Below are positions 22,791-33,914 of a DNA stretch of 51,650 nt, one piece after another (position 1 is the stretch's first letter; every line of letters starts with the position of its first letter). The stretch is from Fimbriiglobus sp. Lineage in GTDB: Bacteria; Planctomycetota; Planctomycetia; Gemmatales; Gemmataceae. The notes beneath the pieces were generated by a model. It was not told where the DNA came from, did not search any database, and saw nothing but the letters and a program-made list of their open reading frames with translations. The DNA lies in NCBI GenBank assembly GCA_025362195.1, contig JANYHV010000204.1, forward strand, positions 1 to 51,650. The letters run 5' to 3'. The position numbers were made by a program, and so were the translations under genes.

Positions 22791-24092
22791 ATGTCCGACG
22801 ACCCGCCGCGAGGGACCGGGTGGCGCTTCGCCCGCCGGGCGACGGCGATTGCCGCCGCCCGCTTGCGCTTCCCGCTGCTCATCGGCGGCGTGCTCGCCTT
22901 CCTGGCCGGGTGGCCGTACCTCAAGAACGCCTTCGAGAAGCTGACGGTCACCGGTTCGAGCGGCGGGCCGGTCTCGGGCGACACCGAGTACTGGTGCCCG
23001 ATGTGCCCGGGAGTGCTGTCCGACTGGCCGACCAAGTGCCCGGTCTGCAGCATGGCCCTCGTCCGCCGGCAGAAGGGCGACATGACGCCGCTGCCCGACG
23101 GCGTCGTCGCGCGGGTGCAACTCTCCCCGTACCGCGTCCAACTCGCCGGCCTGCGGACCGCCCCGGTCGAGTTCCGCCGGCTGGAAAGCGAGGCCGTCGT
23201 CGGCGGCCTGCTCGAAGCCGCGGCCGGGTCGCAAGCCCCGCTCACCCTGACCGCCGACGTGTTCGAGCCGGCCGCGTCCGGGTTGAGTCTGGGTCAAATT
23301 GGTACGGTCTCGTCGGACGCCTTCCCCGACGAACTGACCACCGGCCGCGTCGTCGAGATCGCGCCGTCGGCTACAGCTGCGGCCGGGCTGCGGGTGCGGG
23401 TGCGACTCGACAACCCGCGCACCGACCTGCGTCCCGGCACCTACGCGGCGGCCAAGTTCCGCACGCCAGTCGCCGCACTCGAATCGTCCCGCCGGGTCGA
23501 GCGGGCACGCTGGGGCGAGTACGCCGCCCTCGGGTTGATCGCCGGGCCGGACGGCGCGCTCGTGGTCTTGGGCGAAGCGGCCGTCCGACAGGCCGCGGCG
23601 GCGGCGGGGCTGACCCTCTGCGTGCCGGAGGCGGCGGTCATCGACACGGGGCCGCGGCGGGTCGTTTACGTCGAGACGATGCCGGGCGTGTACGACGCGG
23701 TCGAAGTGCGGCTCGGCCGGCGCTGCGGCGACTATTACCCGGTCCGCGGGGGGTTGGAGCCGGGCCAGAAGGTCGCCACCGCCGGGGCGATCCTCCTCGA
23801 CGCCGAGACGCGGTTGAACCCGAGTGTCGCCGCGAGCTACTTCGGGGCCGGCAGTCGCCCGAGCGTCGCCCCCACGACTGCGGTGACCCCGCATCCCGGG
23901 GCGACTGCGGCCGACGACGGCTTGCTCATCGCGGCGCAAAAAATCTGCCCGGTGACCGGCGAGCCGCTCGGGTCGATGGGCGCGCCGGTGCGGGTGGCGG
24001 TCGCGGGCAAGGCCGTGTTCGTCTGCTGCAAGGGGTGCGAAAAGCCGCTCCTGCGCAGCCCCGCCGAGTACCTGGCGAAGCTCCCGAAGTGA
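22791..24092 (+). CDS. RND metal-efflux periplasmic adaptor (CusB-like) with metal-binding modules at both ends
   Basis: A 433-residue adaptor. An N-terminal TM (PLLIGGVLAFLAGWPYL) anchors it. A heavy-metal-binding domain follows, with two CxxC pairs (C69/C72 in EYWCPMCPG and C83/C86 in KCPVCSMAL), as in CusB-type adaptors. The central part has the membrane-fusion-protein folds (VVARVQLSPYRVQLAGLRT, TLTADVFEP, LRPGTYAAAKFRTPV, RRVVYVETMPGVYDAVEV, GLEPGQKVATAGAILLDAE). The last 50 residues hold another cysteine motif (KICPVTGEPL and VFVCCKGCEKPL), resembling YHS-type metal domains. It would link the pump encoded next to an outer-membrane channel; no TolC/CusC-type gene is in the window. The coiled-coil hairpin is short or absent. 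Confidence 0.88.
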   Translation: MSDDPPRGTGWRFARRATAIAAARLRFPLLIGGVLAFLAGWPYLKNAFEKLTVTGSSGGPVSGDTEYWCPMCPGVLSDWPTKCPVCSMALVRRQKGDMTPLPDGVVARVQLSPYRVQLAGLRTAPVEFRRLESEAVVGGLLEAAAGSQAPLTLTADVFEPAASGLSLGQIGTVSSDAFPDELTTGRVVEIAPSATAAAGLRVRVRLDNPRTDLRPGTYAAAKFRTPVAALESSRRVERARWGEYAALGLIAGPDGALVVLGEAAVRQAAAAAGLTLCVPEAAVIDTGPRRVVYVETMPGVYDAVEVRLGRRCGDYYPVRGGLEPGQKVATAGAILLDAETRLNPSVAASYFGAGSRPSVAPTTAVTPHPGATAADDGLLIAAQKICPVTGEPLGSMGAPVRVAVAGKAVFVCCKGCEKPLLRSPAEYLAKLPK

Positions 24093-24112
24093 CCGCCCCG
24101 CCTGGACTCGGC

Positions 24113-27100
24113 ATGATCGACCGCGTCATCACGTTCTCGGTCCGCCGCCGCTGGGTCGTCGTCGCCGCGGCGGTCGTGCTCGCGGTCTGGGGGGCGTACT
24201 CGGCGGCCCGCACGCCGGTCGATGCGATCCCCGACCTGTCCGAAAACCAGGTCGTCGTGTTCACCGAATGGCCCGGCCACGGCCCGGCGGAAATCGAGGA
24301 CCAGATCTCGTACCCGTTGGCGCTCGAACTCAAGGGCCTCGACGGCGTCCGCGTCGTGCGGTCGTCGAGCGACGTGGGCTTTTCGACCGTGAGCGTCGTC
24401 TTCGAGGACCGCGTCGGCTGGGACGCCGGCCGGCGGCAGGTCGGCGACGCGCTGGCCCGGTCGGCCGCCCGGTGGCCGGCCGGCGCGACCCCCCGGCTCG
24501 CCCCGGACGCCGCCGCGACGGGCCAAATCTTCTGGTACACTGTCGAGGGCAAGGGGTACGACCCCGGCCGGCTGCGCGCGGTCCAGGACTGGTTCGTCCG
24601 CCCGCAACTCGCCGCCGTGCCGGGGGTCGCCGAGGTCGCCAGCGTCGGCGGGCTGCAGCTCGAGTACCAGGTCGAACTCGACCCGCACCGCCTCCGCGCC
24701 CGCGGGGTATCGGCCGGGCAGGTGGTCGAGGCCGTCCGCCGGGCGAACGCCGCGGTCGGCGGCGACGTGGTCGTCAAGGGCAGCGCCGAGTACGTCGCCC
24801 GCGCCGCCGGCTGGCTCGGCGCGCGGCCGGGCCGACCGGACGCCCCGCCCGACCCGCAGCGGGTGGTGCGCGACCTGGAGGACGTGACCGTCGCCGCCGC
24901 GGACGGCACGCCGGTCCCGCTCGCCGACCTGGGGACGGTCGCGCTCGGCAGCGCCCCGCGGCGTGGCATTCTCGAGAAGGACGGGAGTGAGGCGACCGGC
25001 GGCGTCGTCCTCTTGCGGCACGGCGAGAACCCGCTCGAAGTCACCCGCGCACTGCGGGCGAAGGTCCGGGGGCTGCGCCCCGGCCTGCCGCCGGGCGTGC
25101 GGATCGTGGTCGCTTACGACCGCACCCCGCTCATCGAGGGCACCGTCGGCACGGTCACCGGCACGCTACTCGAAGCGATCCTGACGGCGACCGTTTGCAT
25201 CGTCGTCGTGCTGCGGCACCTGCGGACGGCCTTCGTCGTCGCCCTCACGCTGCCCCTCGCCGTGCTGTTCTCGTTCGGCGTCATCGACCTGCTCCGCCGC
25301 ACGGGTGTCGTCGCCGTCGAGACCAACCTGATGTCGCTGGCCGGGCTGACGATCTCGATCGGGGTGCTGGTCGATTCGTCCATCGTGACGGCCGAGAATG
25401 TCGTGCACCGCTTGAAGACGCGGTACGGCGAGCAGCCCGTCCGCGGCGACACCCGGGACGACGTGATCGCCGCGTGCCGGGAGGTCGGCCGGCCGATCGT
25501 CTTCTCCGTGCTCGTCGTGCTCGTGTCGTTCCTGCCGGTGTTCGCGCTGGGCGGGCTGGAGGGCAAGATGTTCCACCCGCTCGCGTACACCAAGTCGTTC
25601 GCCCTGGTCGGGGTCGGGCTGCTGTCCCTGACCCTCGTCCCGGCCCTGTGTAGCTTCTTCGTCAAGGGGCGGCTGCGGTCCGAAGAGCAGGTCGGGATCG
25701 TCCGCGGGTTGGTGCGGGTTTACCGCCCGGTGCTGGCGTACTTGATCGACCGGCCGGCGGGCATCGTCGCCTTCGTCGGGCTGACCTTCGTCCTCGGGGC
25801 CGCCCCGTTCGGCGCGCCGGGGTTGATGCCGGTCGTGGTCGCCGTCGCCGTCGCCGGGAGCGTCTGGGCGGCGTCCCGCACGCGGACGAAGTTCGCCGTC
25901 GCCGGCGGGTTGGTCGTCGTCGGGCTGGCGGCCGGGCAGTGGGTGACGCCGCTGCCGCGCGAGTTCTTGACCCCGCTCGACGAGGGCACAGCGATGGACA
26001 TGCCGATCACCGTCCCGCGCATGTCGGCGGCGCAGGCGGGGGACGACTTGCGCGCCCGGGACATGATCCTGTGCCGCTTCCCGGAAGTCGAGATGGTCGT
26101 CGGCAAGGCCGGGCGGGCCGAGACGGCGAGCGACCCGGCCCCGCTCGACATGATCGAGACGATGATCGGCTTCCGGCCGCGCGAGTTCTGGCCCCGCCGC
26201 TGCCTCCGCCCGGCCGACGCCGAACGGCACGCGGCCGACGTTTTGGACGCACTCATCGCCGCCGGGCTGGTCCGCGACCCCGGCGACCGCCGCGACCCGG
26301 CCGCCGCCGCCGCGATGGCCGCGGTGCCCCTGTTCGACGCCCAAATCCGCGAAGCGGCGTACCAGCGGAACAAGGAGTTCGAGCGCGACCTGGGGCTGCG
26401 ACTGGCCCGGTTCGCCGGCGAAGAATTGGTCGCCCGACTCGGCCGCGACGGCGCGCTCGCGGCCGGCACCGCGGCCGGCGGACTGGTCGCGTTGACCGAC
26501 TCGGTCCTCCCGGCACACGCCGCGCACCTGGGCATGGAGCCGACGCCGGAAGCGGTCGCGGCGCTGGTCGACGACGTGCTCCGCAAGCTCACCGACCTCG
26601 GGGCGGTCGCGCCCCGGGCGGCCCCCGACCGGCGGCCCGCGGAGTGGCTCGGTCGGCTGCTCCCGCTCGGCGATTCGACGCTCGCCGGGCAGGTGTTCGC
26701 CGCCGTGAAGGCCCGGCACCGCGAGCAGTGGCAGGCGCACGCGACCCGGTTGAACGCGGAACTCCTCGACCGCGCCGCCGGGCTGTACACCCGGCTGGCC
26801 CTCGAAGCCCTGCTCGGCGCGTGCGAAATCACCGACCCCCGCGTCGCCGCAGCGGTCCGGCAGTGGCACCAGGTGCGGTCCGCCGTCCCGGCCGCCGGCG
26901 GGCACCACCACGGCAGTGCCCTGCCCTTCCTCGACCCGGTCCCGGGACTCGACGCCGTGCAGGCCGAGCAGACGCGGCGGCTGGCCCGCCGGCTGCTCCT
27001 GTGGCCGCGCGGCCGGGTCGAACTGGCCGGGTCCGGCGGGGAGATGGACCGCGCGCTCCAGGTGCCCGGGTGGACCAACGTCTGGACCATGCCGATCCAG

Positions 27101-28264
27101 AACCGCGTCGACATGCTCTCGACCGGCGTGAACACCACCGTCGGGGTGCGGGTGCTCGGCCGCCGGGCCGAGGACGTGGTCCGCGCGTCCGAGGAGATCG
27201 CGGCCCTGTTGAAGACGATCCCCGGGGCGGCCGACGTGATCGCCGACCCGGTCCGCGGCAAGGGCACCCTCGAAGTCGTCCCCGACCGGGCCAAGGCGGC
27301 GCGGCTCGGGGTCGAGCCGGGGGCGGTCACCGACCTCGTCGAAATCGCCCTCGGCGGCCGCGTCGCCACGACCACCGTCGAGGGCCGGGAGCGCTACCCC
27401 GTCCGCGTCCGCTTCGCCCGCGCGTACCGCGAGGACGAGGAGTCGGTCCGGTCCCTGCCGGTCCCCGTGCGGACCCGGGCCGGGGCCGCGCACGTCCCGC
27501 TCGCGGCCGTCGCCGACGTCCGCGTCGCCGAGGGGCCGGCGTCCATCAAGGGGGAGAACGGCCTGGCCCGGAACTACGTCCGGCTCAACGTCCGCGGCCG
27601 GGACGCGACCGAGTTCGTCGCCGCCGCCCGCCAGGCCGTCGCCGCCGGCGTCCGTTTGCCCGACGGCGTCCACGTCGAGTGGACCGGCCAGTTCGAGCAC
27701 GAGGCGCACGCCCGGCGGACCCTGGTGGTCGCCGTCCCGGTCGTCGTCGGGCTGATCTTCCTCATCCTCTGGTGGACGTACCGCGACGCGGCCGACGCCG
27801 CCTTGCTGCTCGTCGCCGTGCCCGGGGCGTTGGCCGGGGGGGTCATCTTCCAGTGGCTGTTCGGGTACCCATTGTCGGTCGCCGCGTGGGTCGGGTTCAT
27901 CGCCTGCTTCGGCATGGCGACCTCGACCGGCGTCGTCATGCTCCTGTACCTGCGGCTCGCGGTCGAGAACGCCGGCGGGCTGGGGGTACTCACGCCGGAG
28001 ACGTTGCGCGAGGTCGTGTTGAACGGGGCCGCGCACCGCCTCCGGCCCAAGCTCCTGACCGAAGCGACGACGCTCCTCGGGCTGGCCCCGATCCTGCTCG
28101 CCACGGGCACCGGGTCGGAAGTCCTCCGGCCGATGGTCCTGCCCGTCTTCGGCGGCCTGTTGATCGCCGACGAAGTCATCGACCTGTTCCTGCCGGTCCT
28201 CTTCTACCGGGTCCGCCTCCGCCGCTTGCGCGCGGCCCGGCCCCGAAGCCCGGTCGGCGACTAG
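24113..28264 (+). CDS. CusA/CzcA-type heavy-metal RND efflux pump with a large inserted domain
   Basis: A 1383-residue pump from ATG 24113 (MIDRVITFSVRRRWVVV, the usual N-terminus). GTG 24089, overlapping the adaptor stop, would add 8 residues. TM1 is followed by periplasmic porter motifs (DAIPDLSENQVVVFTEWPG). The TM2-6 block contains GLTISIGVLVDSSIVTAENV, which lacks the first Asp of CzcA and so resembles the monovalent (Cu+/Ag+) group. The second half keeps VVGKAGRAETASDPAPLDMI, WTMPIQNRVDMLSTGVN and a TM7-12 block. Family members are about 1040 residues. The excess is a roughly 275-residue insert (about 701-975) between REFWPR and EMDRALQVPGWTN, mostly helical, with a HHHG cluster near 930. 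Metal specificity is an inference. Confidence 0.9.
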   Translation: MIDRVITFSVRRRWVVVAAAVVLAVWGAYSAARTPVDAIPDLSENQVVVFTEWPGHGPAEIEDQISYPLALELKGLDGVRVVRSSSDVGFSTVSVVFEDRVGWDAGRRQVGDALARSAARWPAGATPRLAPDAAATGQIFWYTVEGKGYDPGRLRAVQDWFVRPQLAAVPGVAEVASVGGLQLEYQVELDPHRLRARGVSAGQVVEAVRRANAAVGGDVVVKGSAEYVARAAGWLGARPGRPDAPPDPQRVVRDLEDVTVAAADGTPVPLADLGTVALGSAPRRGILEKDGSEATGGVVLLRHGENPLEVTRALRAKVRGLRPGLPPGVRIVVAYDRTPLIEGTVGTVTGTLLEAILTATVCIVVVLRHLRTAFVVALTLPLAVLFSFGVIDLLRRTGVVAVETNLMSLAGLTISIGVLVDSSIVTAENVVHRLKTRYGEQPVRGDTRDDVIAACREVGRPIVFSVLVVLVSFLPVFALGGLEGKMFHPLAYTKSFALVGVGLLSLTLVPALCSFFVKGRLRSEEQVGIVRGLVRVYRPVLAYLIDRPAGIVAFVGLTFVLGAAPFGAPGLMPVVVAVAVAGSVWAASRTRTKFAVAGGLVVVGLAAGQWVTPLPREFLTPLDEGTAMDMPITVPRMSAAQAGDDLRARDMILCRFPEVEMVVGKAGRAETASDPAPLDMIETMIGFRPREFWPRRCLRPADAERHAADVLDALIAAGLVRDPGDRRDPAAAAAMAAVPLFDAQIREAAYQRNKEFERDLGLRLARFAGEELVARLGRDGALAAGTAAGGLVALTDSVLPAHAAHLGMEPTPEAVAALVDDVLRKLTDLGAVAPRAAPDRRPAEWLGRLLPLGDSTLAGQVFAAVKARHREQWQAHATRLNAELLDRAAGLYTRLALEALLGACEITDPRVAAAVRQWHQVRSAVPAAGGHHHGSALPFLDPVPGLDAVQAEQTRRLARRLLLWPRGRVELAGSGGEMDRALQVPGWTNVWTMPIQNRVDMLSTGVNTTVGVRVLGRRAEDVVRASEEIAALLKTIPGAADVIADPVRGKGTLEVVPDRAKAARLGVEPGAVTDLVEIALGGRVATTTVEGRERYPVRVRFARAYREDEESVRSLPVPVRTRAGAAHVPLAAVADVRVAEGPASIKGENGLARNYVRLNVRGRDATEFVAAARQAVAAGVRLPDGVHVEWTGQFEHEAHARRTLVVAVPVVVGLIFLILWWTYRDAADAALLLVAVPGALAGGVIFQWLFGYPLSVAAWVGFIACFGMATSTGVVMLLYLRLAVENAGGLGVLTPETLREVVLNGAAHRLRPKLLTEATTLLGLAPILLATGTGSEVLRPMVLPVFGGLLIADEVIDLFLPVLFYRVRLRRLRAARPRSPVGD

Positions 28265-28305: not shown

Positions 28306-28983
28306 ATGCCGCTGACCGTCCCCCTGTTCGTCGCCAAGTGGAAGGCCGCCAGCCTGTCCGAGCGGTCGTCGTACCAGCAGCACTTCCTCGACTTGTGTAG
28401 CCTGCTCGACGTGACGCCGCCGGCCGAGGAGGACCCGACCGGGGCGTCGTTCACCTTCGAGAAGGGCGTGACCAAGGCCGACGGCGGCAAGGGCTTCGCC
28501 GACGTCTGGCGGCGCGGCTGCTTCGGCTGGGAGTACAAGGGCAAGCACAAGGACCTCGACGCCGCCTACCGCCAACTGCAGAACTACCGCGAGGCCCTCG
28601 AGAACCCGCCGCTGTTGGTCGTGTGCGACCTCGAAACCTTCGTCGTCCGCACCAACTTCACCGGCACCCCGACCGAGCGGCACGAATTCCACCTCGACGA
28701 CCTGGCCGACACCAAGACCTTTGGCCTGCTCCGCAACCTCTTCCACGCCCCCTACGAGTTGCGGCCGGGCAAGACGCAGAAGGAGATCACTGAGAAGGTC
28801 GCGGCCAAGTTCGCCAAGCTCGCCGACGGCCTGCGCGGCCGGGGGGTCGAGCCCGAGCCGGCGGCCAGTGCTGCCGTCGTAAGGCAATTGAGGTCAAGAG
28901 CCGACCGGTGGCCGGTCCGTTACTATAACAAGATGGCCACTTTTGACTTCTGCAGGACTGCCGAAAGGCTTCGTTCGTGTTAA
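28306..28983 (+). pseudogene. MmeI-like restriction-modification enzyme, N-terminal nuclease fragment
   Basis: A 225-codon ORF whose first about 187 residues match the N-terminus of MmeI-like type IIL enzymes: FVAKWKAASLSERSSYQQHF, LDAAYRQLQNYREALENPP, LLVVCDLETFVVRTNFTG and LRPGKTQKEITEKVAAKFAK. The nuclease motif D-x9-E-x-K is intact (D66, E76, K78 in ADVWRRGCFGWEYKGK). Homology stops abruptly at about 28866 (GVEPEPAA), where relatives continue into the helical spacer and methyltransferase. The last about 38 residues are unrelated. The stop TAA overlaps the ATG of the next gene (TAATG). It could still make a small nuclease-domain protein, but as a restriction enzyme it is broken. The C-terminus survives at 30177-30641. 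Confidence 0.8.
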
Positions 28984-29993
28984 TGCAGCAATACGCCCTC
29001 GTGGCGACATCCGCCGGGCTCGTCGTCGGCGTCGTAGGCTTAGTGCTCGTCGGAGTCTACCGGAGGGATCTCGGTCGGTCATTCAACGGGTTCTGGTCGA
29101 AGTGGATTTCGGTGCCGATGCAGGTCTTGAGCCTGCTGTCTTCAGCGGGCGCGGCGTTCGACCGACCGGAGGCAAAGGCGGACTGGGTGGCGAACGTCGT
29201 GGTCGGGATTGCCGCGTTCGCCGTCTGGACTACGCTCCAAATCTTAGTCGATTACTACTTCAAGGAAGGCGAGCGCTTCGACTTCGAGCGGCTCGAAGAT
29301 TCCCAGAGCCGGAACGATGCTTACATCTGGCTGTTCGGTTCGATGCGTAAGCTCGTCGATTTCAAACTGAGTCACATTCGGGGCGAGTTGGATTCCAGTA
29401 AGGGCAAGCCAACGGTCAAGAGCATCCGCGAATGCCTCCGCACGGGTGACGAGTTAGACGGCTTCCTGACCGCGGTGTGCCAATTTTACATCGGTTTAGT
29501 TTCGGGCCAGTCCCCCAAGCCCCCGAACTTCCGGGCCGTTTTGTACGTCAGTCAAGGCGGGTACATGACGCCGATCCGCGGCAGCAGTCACAACGACAAT
29601 TTGTGGGAGCCGTCGCCGTCCTTCGAGGCTAACCACGCGGCTTTCGCACTCACTGGCTGTCAAAATCCGGCACTAGTCACAGTCTGCATCAACCGACAAG
29701 CAACAATAATGTTCGGGGATACTTTAGCCGCCTCTGACCGTGGAGAGTTCGAATTTCTCCACGCCGATCAGCGGAGCTACTTGCGGTCGATTATTGCGTG
29801 CCCGCTGGGTAAAGTCTGGCGACCCGACCGCAAGTTGGCCCAGTGCGCGTTGGTCGTTGACACCAACGTGCCGGACTTTTTCCTCGAAAGCGACCGGCCA
29901 TTTTTAGAATTCTGCCTGCGCGAGTTCGCCAGCCGAATTAAACTGGAACTGATGCTCGAAGCCATGCTCACCAGCGGGGAGGGTTCGCCATGA
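28983..29993 (+). CDS. Two-TM protein with possible GAF-like domain, on lower-G+C insert
   Basis: A 336-residue protein (ATG 28983; GTG 28977 adds two residues). One hydrophobic helix lies near the N-terminus (LVATSAGLVVGVVGLVLVGV) and another at about residues 70-93 (VANVVVGIAAFAVWTTLQIL). A soluble C-terminal part of about 240 residues follows. Its second half (NFRAVLYVSQGGYMTPIRG, YLRSIIACPLGKVW, AQCALVVDTNVPDFFLESDR, and a closing helix) has the strand order of a GAF-type sensor domain; this is a weak, fold-level impression. I recognise no family name. Base composition is clearly lower in G+C than its flanks, with TTA and ATA codons that neighbours avoid, indicating transfer. It overlaps the next small gene by 4 bp. 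Confidence 0.75.
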   Translation: MQQYALVATSAGLVVGVVGLVLVGVYRRDLGRSFNGFWSKWISVPMQVLSLLSSAGAAFDRPEAKADWVANVVVGIAAFAVWTTLQILVDYYFKEGERFDFERLEDSQSRNDAYIWLFGSMRKLVDFKLSHIRGELDSSKGKPTVKSIRECLRTGDELDGFLTAVCQFYIGLVSGQSPKPPNFRAVLYVSQGGYMTPIRGSSHNDNLWEPSPSFEANHAAFALTGCQNPALVTVCINRQATIMFGDTLAASDRGEFEFLHADQRSYLRSIIACPLGKVWRPDRKLAQCALVVDTNVPDFFLESDRPFLEFCLREFASRIKLELMLEAMLTSGEGSP

Positions 29994-30133
29994 AGACGGC
30001 CGAAGACCAACGGCGAGCAGCCGAGGCACGAGTCGCGCGTAAGGAAGCGCTCAAGAAACAAATCACGGAGAGCGTGCGAAAGGATTTGGCGGCACTCCGG
30101 GAACACGACGCTCGACTGCATCGCAAAAAATAA
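29990..30133 (+). CDS. 47-residue charged helical protein coupled to the membrane gene
   Basis: A small ORF starting at the ATG that overlaps the preceding stop (ATGA) and ending at TAA 30131-30133. The product is almost entirely helical and charged (MKTAEDQRRAAEARVARKEA, then LKKQITESVRKDLAALREHD and ARLHRKK), with basic residues dominating. It could form a short coiled coil or bind nucleic acid or acidic lipid. No domain is recognised. Strict coupling to the two-TM gene argues that it is real and works with it. It lies inside the same lower-G+C segment that replaced the middle of the restriction gene. Confidence 0.6.
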   Translation: MKTAEDQRRAAEARVARKEALKKQITESVRKDLAALREHDARLHRKK

Positions 30134-30176: not shown

Positions 30177-30641
30177 ACTGTTTTCGGGATTCGGCCGGAC
30201 TGGGTAGCCGATCCGACGGACGCCCAGCGCGAGGCGGTCGCGGCGGCGGCGAAGGAACTCGACGGCTTGCGGAGCAACTGGCTCAACCCGCCGGAGTGGA
30301 CCGCCACCGAAACCCTCACCTTCCCCGGCAGCGTCGGCGGGCCGTGGCGGCGCTACGTCACCGAACCGGACGCCCGCGGCGTCGGCACGGTCCGCTACCC
30401 GCGCACGGTGCCGAAGTCGCCCGAGTTCGCCGCGAAGCTTAAGGACCGCACGCTGACGAAGCTCTACAACGAGCGGCCGGCGTGGCTGGCGAACGCGCAC
30501 ACGAAGCTCGACGCCGCCGTGTGTGCCGCCTACGGCTGGCCGGCGACCGTCGCCGCCGACGACTTGCTAGCGAAGCTGCTCGCGCTCAACCTGTCCCGTG
30601 CCGGCAGCGCCGCCCCCGCCGCGACCGACGACCCGGAGTGA
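30177..30641 (+). pseudogene. MmeI-like restriction-modification enzyme, C-terminal fragment
   Basis: The frame opens after a TGA at 30174-30176 and has no ATG or GTG near its beginning (TTG 30267 is internal). From about 30183 it reads FGIRPDWVADPTDAQREAV, LRSNWLNPPEWTATETLTFP, ARGVGTVRYPRTVPKSPEF and LTKLYNERPAWLANAHTKLD, then AAYGWPATVAADDLLAKLLA LNLSR. This is the standard C-terminus of MmeI-like DNA methyltransferase/restriction proteins. The methyltransferase catalytic motifs (FxGxG and NPPY) that should precede it are absent. It is the distal remnant of the gene that begins at 28306. It converges with the sigma54 activator gene. Confidence 0.8.
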
Positions 30642-30730: not shown

Positions 30731-32206
30731 CTACCCGACGCGACCCTGGCGCTCTTCTTCGTACTTGTGCAGCTTGTTGTACAGCGTCTTCAGGCTGATG
30801 CCGAGTTCGGTCGCCGTCGCCTGCTTGTTGCCCGTGTTCTTGGCGTACACGTGCAGGATGTAGTCCATCTCCACGTCGGACAGCGTCTTCGCGGACGCGC
30901 TCGGGTCGGGCTGAGTGGCCGGCGGCGGGATGTACGTCGTCGGGGCGGTCGCCGGGGTCGGGGCGTAGGACGGCATCGACAGCGTGGCCGGGCCGGTGTG
31001 CGGGGCCAGGCGGGGGGCGCGCACGTCGTAGGGCAGGTGGTGCGTCAGGATCGGCTGGCCGGCGGCGACGATCCAGGCGTACTCCATCGCGTTCGCCAAC
31101 TCGCGGACGTTGCCCTGCCAGTGGTAGTTCAAAATCACCCGCATCGCCTCGTCGGTCAGCAACTCGACGACGGCGGCGTACGGCTTCTTCGCCGCCCGCG
31201 CGAGCAGGTGCCGGGCGAGTTCGGGGATGTCCTCGCGGCGCTCCCGGAGCGGCGGCAGGTGGATGTGGAACATGTTCAGGCGGAACAACAAGTCTTCGCG
31301 GAAGGTGCCCTCGACGACCATCTGCCGCAAGTCGCGGTTGGTCGCCGAGATGACGCGGACGTCGACGATGGTCGCCTCGTTGGCCCCGACCGGGCGGATC
31401 TCGCCGGCCTCCAGGAAGCGGAGGAGTTTGACCTGCGTCTGCTTGTCGAGTTCGGCCAGTTCGTCGAGGAGCAGCGTGCCGCCGTTGGCGACCTCGAACA
31501 TGCCCTTGCGGTCGGCCTGGGCACCGGTGAAGGCGTTCTTCTTGTGCCCGAACAGTTCGCTCTCGACGAGTTGCGGACTCAGCGCCCCGCAGTTCACCGG
31601 GATGAACGGCATGTCGGCCCGGCGTGACTTCGAGTACAGGGCGCGGGCGACGACTTCTTTGCCAGTCCCCGTTTCGCCGGTGATGAGCACGCGGGCGTCG
31701 GTCCCGGCGATCTGATCGACGAGCCGCTGAACGGGCAGCATCGCCGGGCTGGCCCCGATCAAGAACCCCGGCCCCTCGGCCGCTTGCACCCGCGACTCCA
31801 GAGCGACGGCCTTGTTCTTGAGCCGCTTCTTGTCCTGGATGCGCAGGAAAACGGCCTCGATCTCGGCGAGTTGGCACGGCTTGCGGAGGTAGTCGCACGC
31901 CCCGAGGCGCATGGCCTGGACCATGCTCTCTTCGCTGGCGTACCCGGTCATCATGATCGCTTCGGTGTCCGGGCTGACCTGCTTGAGCCGCTGGAGCACG
32001 TCGATCCCGGACAGGCCGGGCATGCGGATGTCGAGCAGGGCCACGTCGAAGCTCTGGGCGGCGATGGCCTGGAGGGCCTGCTCGCCGTTGGCGCACACGA
32101 CCACGTCGTGGCCGAGGGCTTTCAGCTCGATGCGCATGAACTCTTGGAGTTGACGCTCGTCGTCCACGAAGAGGATGCGGAGCCGGTTGTGCGGTTGCGT
32201 GGCCAA
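30731..32206 (-). CDS. NtrC-family sigma54-dependent response regulator
   Basis: A 491-residue activator. The receiver domain (residues 10-125) has D59 as phospho-acceptor (VALLDIRMPGLSG) and a KP pair at 109-110. The AAA+ domain has Walker A GETGTGKE (177-184) and Walker B TLLLDELAELD (244-254). The sigma54-contacting loop reads NAFTGA (224-229) instead of GAFTGA. The arginine-finger region is NYHWQGNVRELANAME. A Pro/Thr-rich linker precedes the Fis-type helix-turn-helix (ATATELGISLKTLYNKLHKY). It activates sigma54 promoters after phosphorylation, probably by the kinase encoded 88 bp upstream on the same strand. Targets are not evident in the window. Confidence 0.93.
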   Translation of the reverse strand: MATQPHNRLRILFVDDERQLQEFMRIELKALGHDVVVCANGEQALQAIAAQSFDVALLDIRMPGLSGIDVLQRLKQVSPDTEAIMMTGYASEESMVQAMRLGACDYLRKPCQLAEIEAVFLRIQDKKRLKNKAVALESRVQAAEGPGFLIGASPAMLPVQRLVDQIAGTDARVLITGETGTGKEVVARALYSKSRRADMPFIPVNCGALSPQLVESELFGHKKNAFTGAQADRKGMFEVANGGTLLLDELAELDKQTQVKLLRFLEAGEIRPVGANEATIVDVRVISATNRDLRQMVVEGTFREDLLFRLNMFHIHLPPLRERREDIPELARHLLARAAKKPYAAVVELLTDEAMRVILNYHWQGNVRELANAMEYAWIVAAGQPILTHHLPYDVRAPRLAPHTGPATLSMPSYAPTPATAPTTYIPPPATQPDPSASAKTLSDVEMDYILHVYAKNTGNKQATATELGISLKTLYNKLHKYEEERQGRVG

Positions 32207-32294
32207 AGTCTCTCCCGTCGCCCTGGGGGCGTCCGTCGTGCGTCACTCGTGCGTCGTCCCGGTGCGGAATCCGTTCCGCGGCCGGTGGGCGGGC

Positions 32295-33914
32295 TCACGC
32301 CACCGCCGCCGCCCGGCCGGGGAACGGCAGGACGATGTGCGGGTGGGACGCGGGCGTAGGTTCGGCTTTTTCGGCCGCGGTCGTCAAGGGCAGTCGGACC
32401 ACGAAGGTACTCCCCTGCCCGGGGCCGGCACTCGTCGCACGAATGGTGCCGCCGTGCTGGTCGATGATCTGGTGGCTAATCGACAGGCCAAGTCCGGTCC
32501 CGTTGCCGGTCCGGCTGCGGGTGAAGAACGGCTCGAAAATGTGCTGGAGGGTGTCCGGGGCCATGCCGCACCCCGAGTCCGCGAAGCAGAGTTCGGCGTG
32601 CGTCGCGTCCGCCGTCAGGGTGACCTCGACGCCCCCGCCCTCCTCCATGCTGTCCAGGGCGTTGACGATCAAGTTGAGCACCACCCCCTTCACGTCCGGC
32701 ACGCTCAGCGCGGCCGTGGCCGTCGCGGCCGGGGCGAAGTGGATGAGCTTGTTGCGAGCGTTCGGCAGGACCCGGGCGACCTCGATCACGTCGGCCACGA
32801 GTTGGGACACCTCGGCCCGCTCGCGCTTGCCCCCGCTGCGGCTGAAGTCGAGCAGCTTCTGGGTGATCTGCTTGCACCGCTGGGACTCTTCCTGGATCAT
32901 CCGCAGGTACTTTTGCACCACCTCGCCCTCGGCCCCGAGCCGCGGCAGGACCGCTTGCAGCCGGCGCTCGAGGGCCTCGGCGCAGAAGGCGATCGAGGCG
33001 AGCGGGTTGTTGATCTCGTGGGCCACGCCGGCGGCCAGGAAGCCGACGCTGACCATGCGCTCGGACCGCACGAGTTGCAGCGTCCGGTCGTTGACCTGGG
33101 CTTCGAGGTCCCGGTACGTGTCGCGCATCCGGCCGGTCATGGCGTTGAACTCGTCGGCGAGTTCCTGCAACTCGTCGCCCGAGTCGAGCCGGATCGGCCG
33201 GTCGAAGTACCCGTTGTGGACCTCGTGGACGCCGGCCTGGAGGAGTTGGATCGGCGTGAACACCCAGACGCGGAAGTAGTACAGCAGCGCCCCGACCAGC
33301 ACCACGGCGAGCGCCGTGGCGAACCCGGACACGAGCAGGCTGCGGCGGTGGTTGGCCTCGCTCTGCTTCGACGAGTGCTGCACGTCGTCCACCAGGTTCG
33401 TGAACAGTTCCTTGGCCAGGCGTTCGCACTCGGCGTGGGCGCTGACCACCTGCGGGTCGTTGACCAGCCCCCCGCCGGCGACGTTCTGCGTCTTCGACCG
33501 CTCGAGAGCGTCGCCCAGCGCGGCGAACCGTTTGGGCAGGTCGGCCAGTTGAGTGTAGTCGTGCAGGGAGCCGTCGGTGCCGGTCGGGTACGCGGCCCGC
33601 ATGAGCGTCTGGTACCGGGTCAGGGTCTCGCCGGCGGCGGCGATGCGGCCGCGGATCCGCGCGTACTCCTGGTTGATGCCGAAGACAGCGGGATCGGCCG
33701 AGACCGCGTCGCCGTCGGAATTGCGGACCCGCTGGGTGTCGGTCAACAACTGGACCACGAGCCGCATCTCTTCGAGCTTGCGGCCGGTGACGCGCTGGGT
33801 TTCGAGGTACGAGGACAAACCGAACAGTGCCCCGCCGAGGAGCAGGGCCACGCTCCCGATGACGAGGGCCAGGCCGAGACTCAGTTTGTGCCGTAGCCGC
33901 CAGGGACGGGCCAC
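32295..33914 (-). CDS. Sensor histidine kinase, NtrB-like
   Basis: A 539-residue membrane kinase. TM1 is at about 12-33 and TM2 at about 193-213, with a helical periplasmic sensor between them. A HAMP domain (about 213-265, FTPIQLLQAGVHEVHNG) connects to a coiled coil. HisKA has H299 in GVAHEINNPLASIAF, the NtrB-like variant. The HATPase boxes are NLIVNALDSM, FADSGCGMAP and GNGTGLGLSI. The GTG start at 33914 is fixed by an excellent AAGGAGG five bases upstream. It is transcribed just ahead of the NtrC-type regulator, its probable partner. The input signal is unknown. Confidence 0.93.
   Translation of the reverse strand: MARPWRLRHKLSLGLALVIGSVALLLGGALFGLSSYLETQRVTGRKLEEMRLVVQLLTDTQRVRNSDGDAVSADPAVFGINQEYARIRGRIAAAGETLTRYQTLMRAAYPTGTDGSLHDYTQLADLPKRFAALGDALERSKTQNVAGGGLVNDPQVVSAHAECERLAKELFTNLVDDVQHSSKQSEANHRRSLLVSGFATALAVVLVGALLYYFRVWVFTPIQLLQAGVHEVHNGYFDRPIRLDSGDELQELADEFNAMTGRMRDTYRDLEAQVNDRTLQLVRSERMVSVGFLAAGVAHEINNPLASIAFCAEALERRLQAVLPRLGAEGEVVQKYLRMIQEESQRCKQITQKLLDFSRSGGKRERAEVSQLVADVIEVARVLPNARNKLIHFAPAATATAALSVPDVKGVVLNLIVNALDSMEEGGGVEVTLTADATHAELCFADSGCGMAPDTLQHIFEPFFTRSRTGNGTGLGLSISHQIIDQHGGTIRATSAGPGQGSTFVVRLPLTTAAEKAEPTPASHPHIVLPFPGRAAAVA

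Follow-up and report, generated by a model that had tools for sequence, protein, structure and literature searches.

The window, the whole 51,650-nucleotide stretch of DNA analysed here, comes from a 5.66 Mb draft genome in 509 contigs that is 87% complete. At the locus of interest, a large gene with an ATG start (336 aa) is followed by a small gene (47 aa), and the two share the four bases ATGA, a 4 bp overlap (Table 1). The open reading frames that we re-derived match exactly the coordinates and the overlap given in an earlier note on this DNA. The lower G+C content claimed there was also recovered: the pair has a value of 0.582, compared with 0.692 for the whole window, and the restriction-gene pieces on either side have 0.683 and 0.737. 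The small protein carries a net charge of +7, in agreement with its earlier description as basic, and, judged by eye, is probably helical.

The wider surroundings look ordinary by eye, consisting upstream (22791-28264) of what we take to be efflux membrane-fusion and CusA/CzcA-like genes and downstream, on the other strand (30731-33914), presumably of genes for an NtrC-like regulator and a histidine kinase.

Table 1. Features of the window locus and occupants of broken MmeI-type genes at related loci
Feature	Position	Strand	Basis or content
N-terminal remnant, MmeI-type (Type IIG) restriction-methylase gene	28318..28866	+	Pfam MmeI_N 1.3e-15; L040 alignment
Stretch from left break to large gene, without MmeI homology	28867..28982	+	Junction alignment with L040, L041, L042; tblastn ends
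Large gene: two predicted membrane helices, long helical linker, putative GAF domain	28983..29993	+	Family alignment A1, profile search
Predicted membrane helix 1, aa 5-23	28995..29051	+	Kyte-Doolittle 2.49
Predicted membrane helix 2, aa 71-89	29193..29249	+	Kyte-Doolittle 1.90
Putative GAF domain, ~aa 158-331	29454..29975	+	Pfam GAF_2 in L007; AF2 model; Foldseek, VIA-align
Small gene, basic product, ATGA overlap with large gene	29990..30133	+	Alignment A2, profile search
C-terminal remnant, same MmeI-type gene	30210..30641	+	L040 alignment; Pfam MmeI_C 7.5e-5, below cut-off
L042 (G035) occupant	L042:2606-5230		HTH_66 + PIN_10 pair, 4 bp overlap
L044 occupant	L044:2297-5214		GmrSD-type enzyme, PADLOC 1.8e-200
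L046 occupant			PLD/NgoFVII-like nuclease
L045 occupant			Type II methylase fragment
L081 occupant	L081:1473-5184		C5 methylase + EcoO109I-like endonuclease
L079 occupant	Broken gene L079:1460-4034, pair L079:2575-3646		Overlapping 213 aa + 145 aa proteins
L080 occupant	Broken gene L080:1597-3582, ORF L080:2311-2901	-	196 aa protein

The Pair Lies in a Broken MmeI-Type Gene

Both flanks of the pair derive from one MmeI-type gene, the left being its N-terminal domain and the right a C-terminal piece whose Pfam match falls below the curated cut-off. As the reference for the breaks we used L040, a full-length relative of 1017 aa that carries all five parts (MmeI_N, spacer, methylase, TRD, and C) and in which Pfam places MmeI_N at residues 43-219, MmeI_hel at 224-295, and MmeI_TRD at 810-884. 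An intact MmeI-type relative matches the PADLOC family REase_MTase_IIG at 2.4e-285.

L040 residues 48-226 are retained at window positions 28327-28863 and residues 884-1016 at 30210-30608 (71%), and about 650 codons are missing. The left break lies just beyond MmeI_N and the right one where the recognition domain ends, leaving the N and C pieces with the spacer, methylase, and recognition domains gone. The reading frame of the N-terminal remnant continues to 28983. The claim that the pair sits in the ruins of a restriction gene is thus borne out by the flanking pieces and their alignment with L040.

The Large Protein Combines Predicted Membrane Helices with a Putative GAF Domain

Hydropathy predicts two strong membrane stretches near the N-terminus of the large protein, as had been proposed from the sequence; a weaker hydrophobic stretch at residues 41-59 of the window copy is stronger in some relatives. 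A long helical segment follows the membrane stretches, as read from the secondary structure of both our models or by eye.

The C-terminal half had been guessed to be a GAF-type sensor. Pfam GAF_2 matches two of seven family members (5e-4 in L007 and 0.057 in the other), both under the 28.6-bit cut-off, and the window copy has no Pfam GAF match. A profile-profile alignment to five GAF domains encoded in the same genome brought the GAF end motifs into register (P 7e-4, probability 27%), and searching PDB sequences with the profile of the family gave a best E of 0.4. We modeled the domain alone with AF2 from an alignment of the window copy, L030, and L031, obtaining a pLDDT of 69.5 and a pTM of 0.71, with model residues 100-122 below 50; the full-length model and its Foldseek search were too poor in quality for use. 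Foldseek placed GAF-containing and GAF-like ligand-binding domains at the top for the domain model, one of them with E below 1e-3 (6g20, 5.5e-4). With VIA-align, 5hl6_A was matched at Z 9.8 and rmsd 3.4 over 137 aligned residues, and the top rows were GAF and phytochrome domains, the best including a putative GAF sensor and PtsP GAF domains. That GAF domains are the best PDB matches of the domain-only model supports a GAF fold for this half of the protein. Matches to HATPase_c_5 and BrkB, below cut-off in one and two members, respectively, were rejected as identities.

These findings could also describe an ordinary signaling pair, a membrane GAF sensor working with a small helical adaptor, whose location in the ruin would be a recombination accident. 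GAF is a general ligand sensor, and the matches include a putative sensor, phytochromes, and PtsP. Pfam searches of the window copy and the family members found no output, toxic, or enzymatic domain in the large protein; the lack of a toxic or enzymatic domain suits such a pair, but the lack of an output domain does not.

The Pair Is Rare, Kept Together, and under Purifying Selection

Relatives of the large gene occur in 7 of the 95 genomes of the host's family, the protein search and a seven-member profile returning the same genomes. There are eight copies in total, counting once a copy split over two G454 contigs, and two of them belong to the window's own genome. The second pair of that genome (L002:1306-2556, G000:C90) encodes a large protein about 24% identical to that of the window and adjoins a gene that we take to be deoC-like. 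Identity between the window protein and the six other copies aligned in full ranges from 22 to 31%.

A small ORF of 46-58 codons follows the large gene in all eight copies, so the conserved co-occurrence that the earlier note had suggested looking for does exist. The genes overlap in four copies (window, L003, L004, and L006); in L005 a few bases lie between them, and in L002, L007, and L008 the spacing is greater. The net charge of the small protein is +5 to +9 in seven copies and -3 in L006. A small-protein profile built from the eight loci recovers all of them and one further locus, in genome G485.

Codon-position counts and dN/dS show that both genes are protein-coding and under purifying selection among the closest copies (L002, L007, L008, and L017; NG86 dN 0.25-0.44 versus dS 1.2-2.8, with dS computable in five of six cases). 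Chance ORFs are ruled out by the codon-position counts and by dN versus dS. The pair consists of real, previously undescribed genes in a real restriction-gene ruin. GC3 of the large gene is 0.52-0.77 at the seven other loci, below that of most neighbors except at L017.

An order-level profile search of 102 genomes found no further large-gene copies, and a phylum-level search of 392 genomes returned the window's own genome and three partial matches (E 6e-5 to 5e-4), which we excluded from the copy count. Scanning genome contigs with the window protein gave no match; the same scan with A3 gave two loci, both from genomes already among the seven. At the sensitivity used, the pair is absent from the phage, plasmid, and viral-contig collections. 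No PADLOC v2.0.0 family matches either window protein, NCBIfam has no match to the pair (a QatB match of the small protein, 0.073, is nonsignificant), and Pfam gives the window pair no toxin or antitoxin match, the best for the small protein being DUF5771 at 0.018, below cut-off. None of the searched libraries names the family, and neither protein had been recognised in the earlier note. Our searches of the open-licence PMC literature turned up no paper that treats this gene pair or presents the MmeI gene as a slot.

Eight scattered sites and a base composition unlike that of most neighbors would be expected if the pair were a passenger of an unrecognized small mobile element, with neither a host nor a defense function. 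We noticed no integrase or transposase beside the copies, however, nucleotide matches between modules are confined to or near the genes, and both genes are under purifying selection, so that this explanation appears very improbable. A shared mobile element was ruled out, as the copies have no common flanking DNA.

Ordinary Genes Surround the Other Copies

The seven other large-gene copies are single and, as read from translations, lie amid ordinary genes, with no credible MmeI remnant nearby. Near the L011 copy, at a distance of about 4 kb, lies a gene for a D12 DNA methylase, the one PADLOC match among nine neighbor proteins from L010, L011, L012, and L015. The proximity to defense genes that the earlier note had suggested looking for is seen at the window and beside the small gene of G485, weakly at L011, and was not seen at the other six large-gene copies. 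Of the two findings that the note had set against its own proposal, a lack of homologues does not apply, and a confinement of homologues to housekeeping contexts applies halfway, the seven other copies having ordinary neighbors, with the methylase near one of them.

Ordinary genes around seven of the eight copies are also what a signaling pair would lead one to expect. Against it stand the very patchy distribution (7 of 95 genomes), the strong divergence from the window copy, the atypical GC3 at most loci, and the defense-type neighbors at the window and G485, and we consider a signaling pair unlikely.

Broken MmeI-Type Genes Hold Other Cassettes in Relatives

A census with the window's MmeI_N piece as the query yielded 19 distinct loci in 17 of the 397 genomes of the class. 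The MmeI interior is present at 11 of these loci (two with frame breaks and three cut by contig ends) and missing at eight, the window included. Recognizable restriction, nuclease, or toxin-antitoxin genes fill five of the seven broken loci besides the window (Table 1). The earlier note had called the site a place where defense modules swap, and this replacement of the same MmeI interior in relatives agrees with that view.

Both MmeI ends persist at L042, L044, L079, L080, and L081, the C part of L044 being a 39-residue match (5e-7). At L045 the contig ends about 1.4 kb past the methylase fragment, and the C part may be off the contig. The breaks of L042 fall within about 10 codons of those of the window on both sides, and the right breaks of L042, L079, L080, L081, and the window all fall within L040 residues 868-903. 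Two C-terminal-only MmeI remnants lie outside the 19-locus census: that of L055 adjoins an N6_N4 methylase, and that of L054 adjoins a 229 aa ORF.

The 213 aa protein of L079 has, by eye, two N-terminal hydrophobic stretches, and its 145 aa partner is weakly FlgT_C-like (0.055). No defense match was found for these two proteins, which form a candidate defense pair by position. The 196 aa protein of L080 has no Pfam or PADLOC match.

Ten genes just outside seven of the eight broken sites gave no strong PADLOC match (two were weak, near 1e-5). Occupants and neighbors differ in PADLOC matches by 4 of 10 versus 0 of 10 (p 0.087), a post hoc and small comparison; adding Pfam nuclease and PIN calls for the occupants gives 6 of 10 versus 0 of 10 (p 0.011), with Pfam run on only 2 of the 10 neighbors. 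The difference in defense content is suggestive only.

In G485 a Small Gene Follows a TIR Gene

The ninth small-gene locus, in G485 (profile E 3.1e-8), encodes an intact small protein identical to that of L003 at 27 of 46 positions, with changes mostly at third positions. Its gene is preceded by a 327 aa TIR-domain gene (TIR_2 2e-16; L099:1393-2563). Between the two lies a scrap resembling the C-terminus of the L003 large protein (10 of 13 residues), whose frame ends at the ATGA overlap of the small gene. The scrap alone has an E of 1.2, and we accepted it because of the frame it lies in, its place immediately ahead of the small gene, and the shared ATGA. Because this scrap precedes the small gene in frame, the large gene has probably been cut away, the TIR gene now standing in its place. 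The small protein may be a relic, or it may function alongside the TIR protein. Upstream of the two genes lies a restriction gene whose specificity domain is TaqI-like (TaqI_C), and a HigB toxin gene and an HTH gene lie downstream.

Survival of the small gene after loss of the large one would also be compatible with an antitoxin. In a toxin-antitoxin-like module, the large membrane protein would be toxic, the small basic protein would neutralize it, and the pair would be kept by addiction rather than for defense. The overlap of the genes in four of eight copies, the low-GC character of the cassette, and the HTH and PIN pair in the equivalent G035 slot are in line with such a module. Yet the small protein has no match to a DNA-binding domain, the large gene comes first, no toxin family is matched, and the surviving G485 gene adjoins a TIR gene; this makes a toxin-antitoxin pair quite unlikely.

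A Possible Defense Module

A conflict or defense function is the leading candidate reading of these results, and the interpretation offered in the earlier note is supported in part. Specifically, the pair would be an accessory conflict module, probably anti-phage, of a membrane-plus-GAF type that has replaced the catalytic middle of an MmeI-type gene, a proposal that we hold tentatively, with doubt slightly outweighing belief. It is favored by the patchy spread (7 of 95), the pairing in eight of eight copies, the low GC3 at most loci, and the GAF fold indicated by the model. It is strengthened by the restriction, nuclease, or toxin-antitoxin genes at five of seven other interior-less MmeI loci and by the small gene that follows a TIR gene behind a restriction gene at G485. 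Weighing against it are the ordinary neighbors at the seven other loci and the absence of the pair from the phage, plasmid, and viral-contig collections, PADLOC, and NCBIfam. GAF proteins are mostly ordinary sensors, which likewise counts against a defense role. Given the ordinary setting of the seven other copies, the defense reading draws on two loci and the positional pattern rather than on the family as a whole.

The exact mechanism is a guess. The scheme that we infer takes in the defense role and its trigger, the effect on the membrane, and the function of the small protein. In it, the two helices would anchor the large protein in the membrane, with the GAF domain carried by the long helical linker. 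Translated from the same mRNA, the small basic protein would be a constant partner, either restraining the large protein or aiding its assembly. The GAF domain would sense a small molecule or another signal made or changed during infection, and the linker would then alter the packing of the membrane helices. The cell membrane could thereby be damaged, permeabilized, or depolarized, and phage growth would stop.

A bolder extension would make the MmeI-type gene of Planctomycetes a docking slot whose middle is repeatedly swapped for defense cassettes as its ends persist, and the small basic protein a shared adaptor for interchangeable effectors, membrane-GAF in most genomes and TIR in another. 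We regard this extension as improbable at present.

If the defense reading is true, a defense module with a GAF sensor would be added from a phylum in which phages have been little studied. The broken MmeI gene would offer a searchable slot, and unassigned genes inside it, those of L079 and L080 among them, would become defense candidates by position. The small gene beside the TIR gene is a testable hint of a shared adaptor.

Comparison with Known Systems

GAF-domain sensors (Pfam GAF and GAF_2; PDB 5hl6, 1f5m, and 3ci6) share the fold predicted for the C-terminal half of the large protein, with the end motifs in register. The large protein differs from them in lacking an output domain, be it kinase, cyclase, HD, or another, in its two predicted membrane helices and its small gene partner, and in a sequence match below the Pfam cut-off. 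We know of no GAF domain that acts as the gate of a defense membrane effector.

Among membrane effectors gated by a signal molecule, Cap1 of type III CRISPR depolarizes the membrane upon cA4 binding (PMC12642688). It has a pair of membrane helices and a soluble sensor domain (PMC12642688), the layout predicted for the large protein. In Cap1, which acts together with Cas10, the domain that detects cA4 is CARF-like (PMC12642688), whereas the sensor of the large protein would be GAF. Cap1 is a tested analogue of the proposed layout with another sensor. Next to the large-gene copies, neither a cyclase nor a Cas gene was noticed.

MmeI-type Type IIG restriction-methylases correspond to the flanking remnants of the window, which differ from the intact enzymes by the loss of the spacer, methylase, and recognition domains. 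Furuta et al. reportedly dealt in 2010 with mobile restriction systems and rearrangements connected with them.

That restriction genes can replace one another within a single region is well known. The broken MmeI-type gene recalls defense hotspots such as the enteric immigration control region, where restriction and defense genes are interchangeable at one site and a GmrSD homologue replaces McrBC in some genomes (PMC12707154). The anchors differ: the enteric region lies between the genes yjiA and yjiN (PMC12707154), and here both anchors belong to one MmeI-type gene, as its two ends, in several genera of the class.
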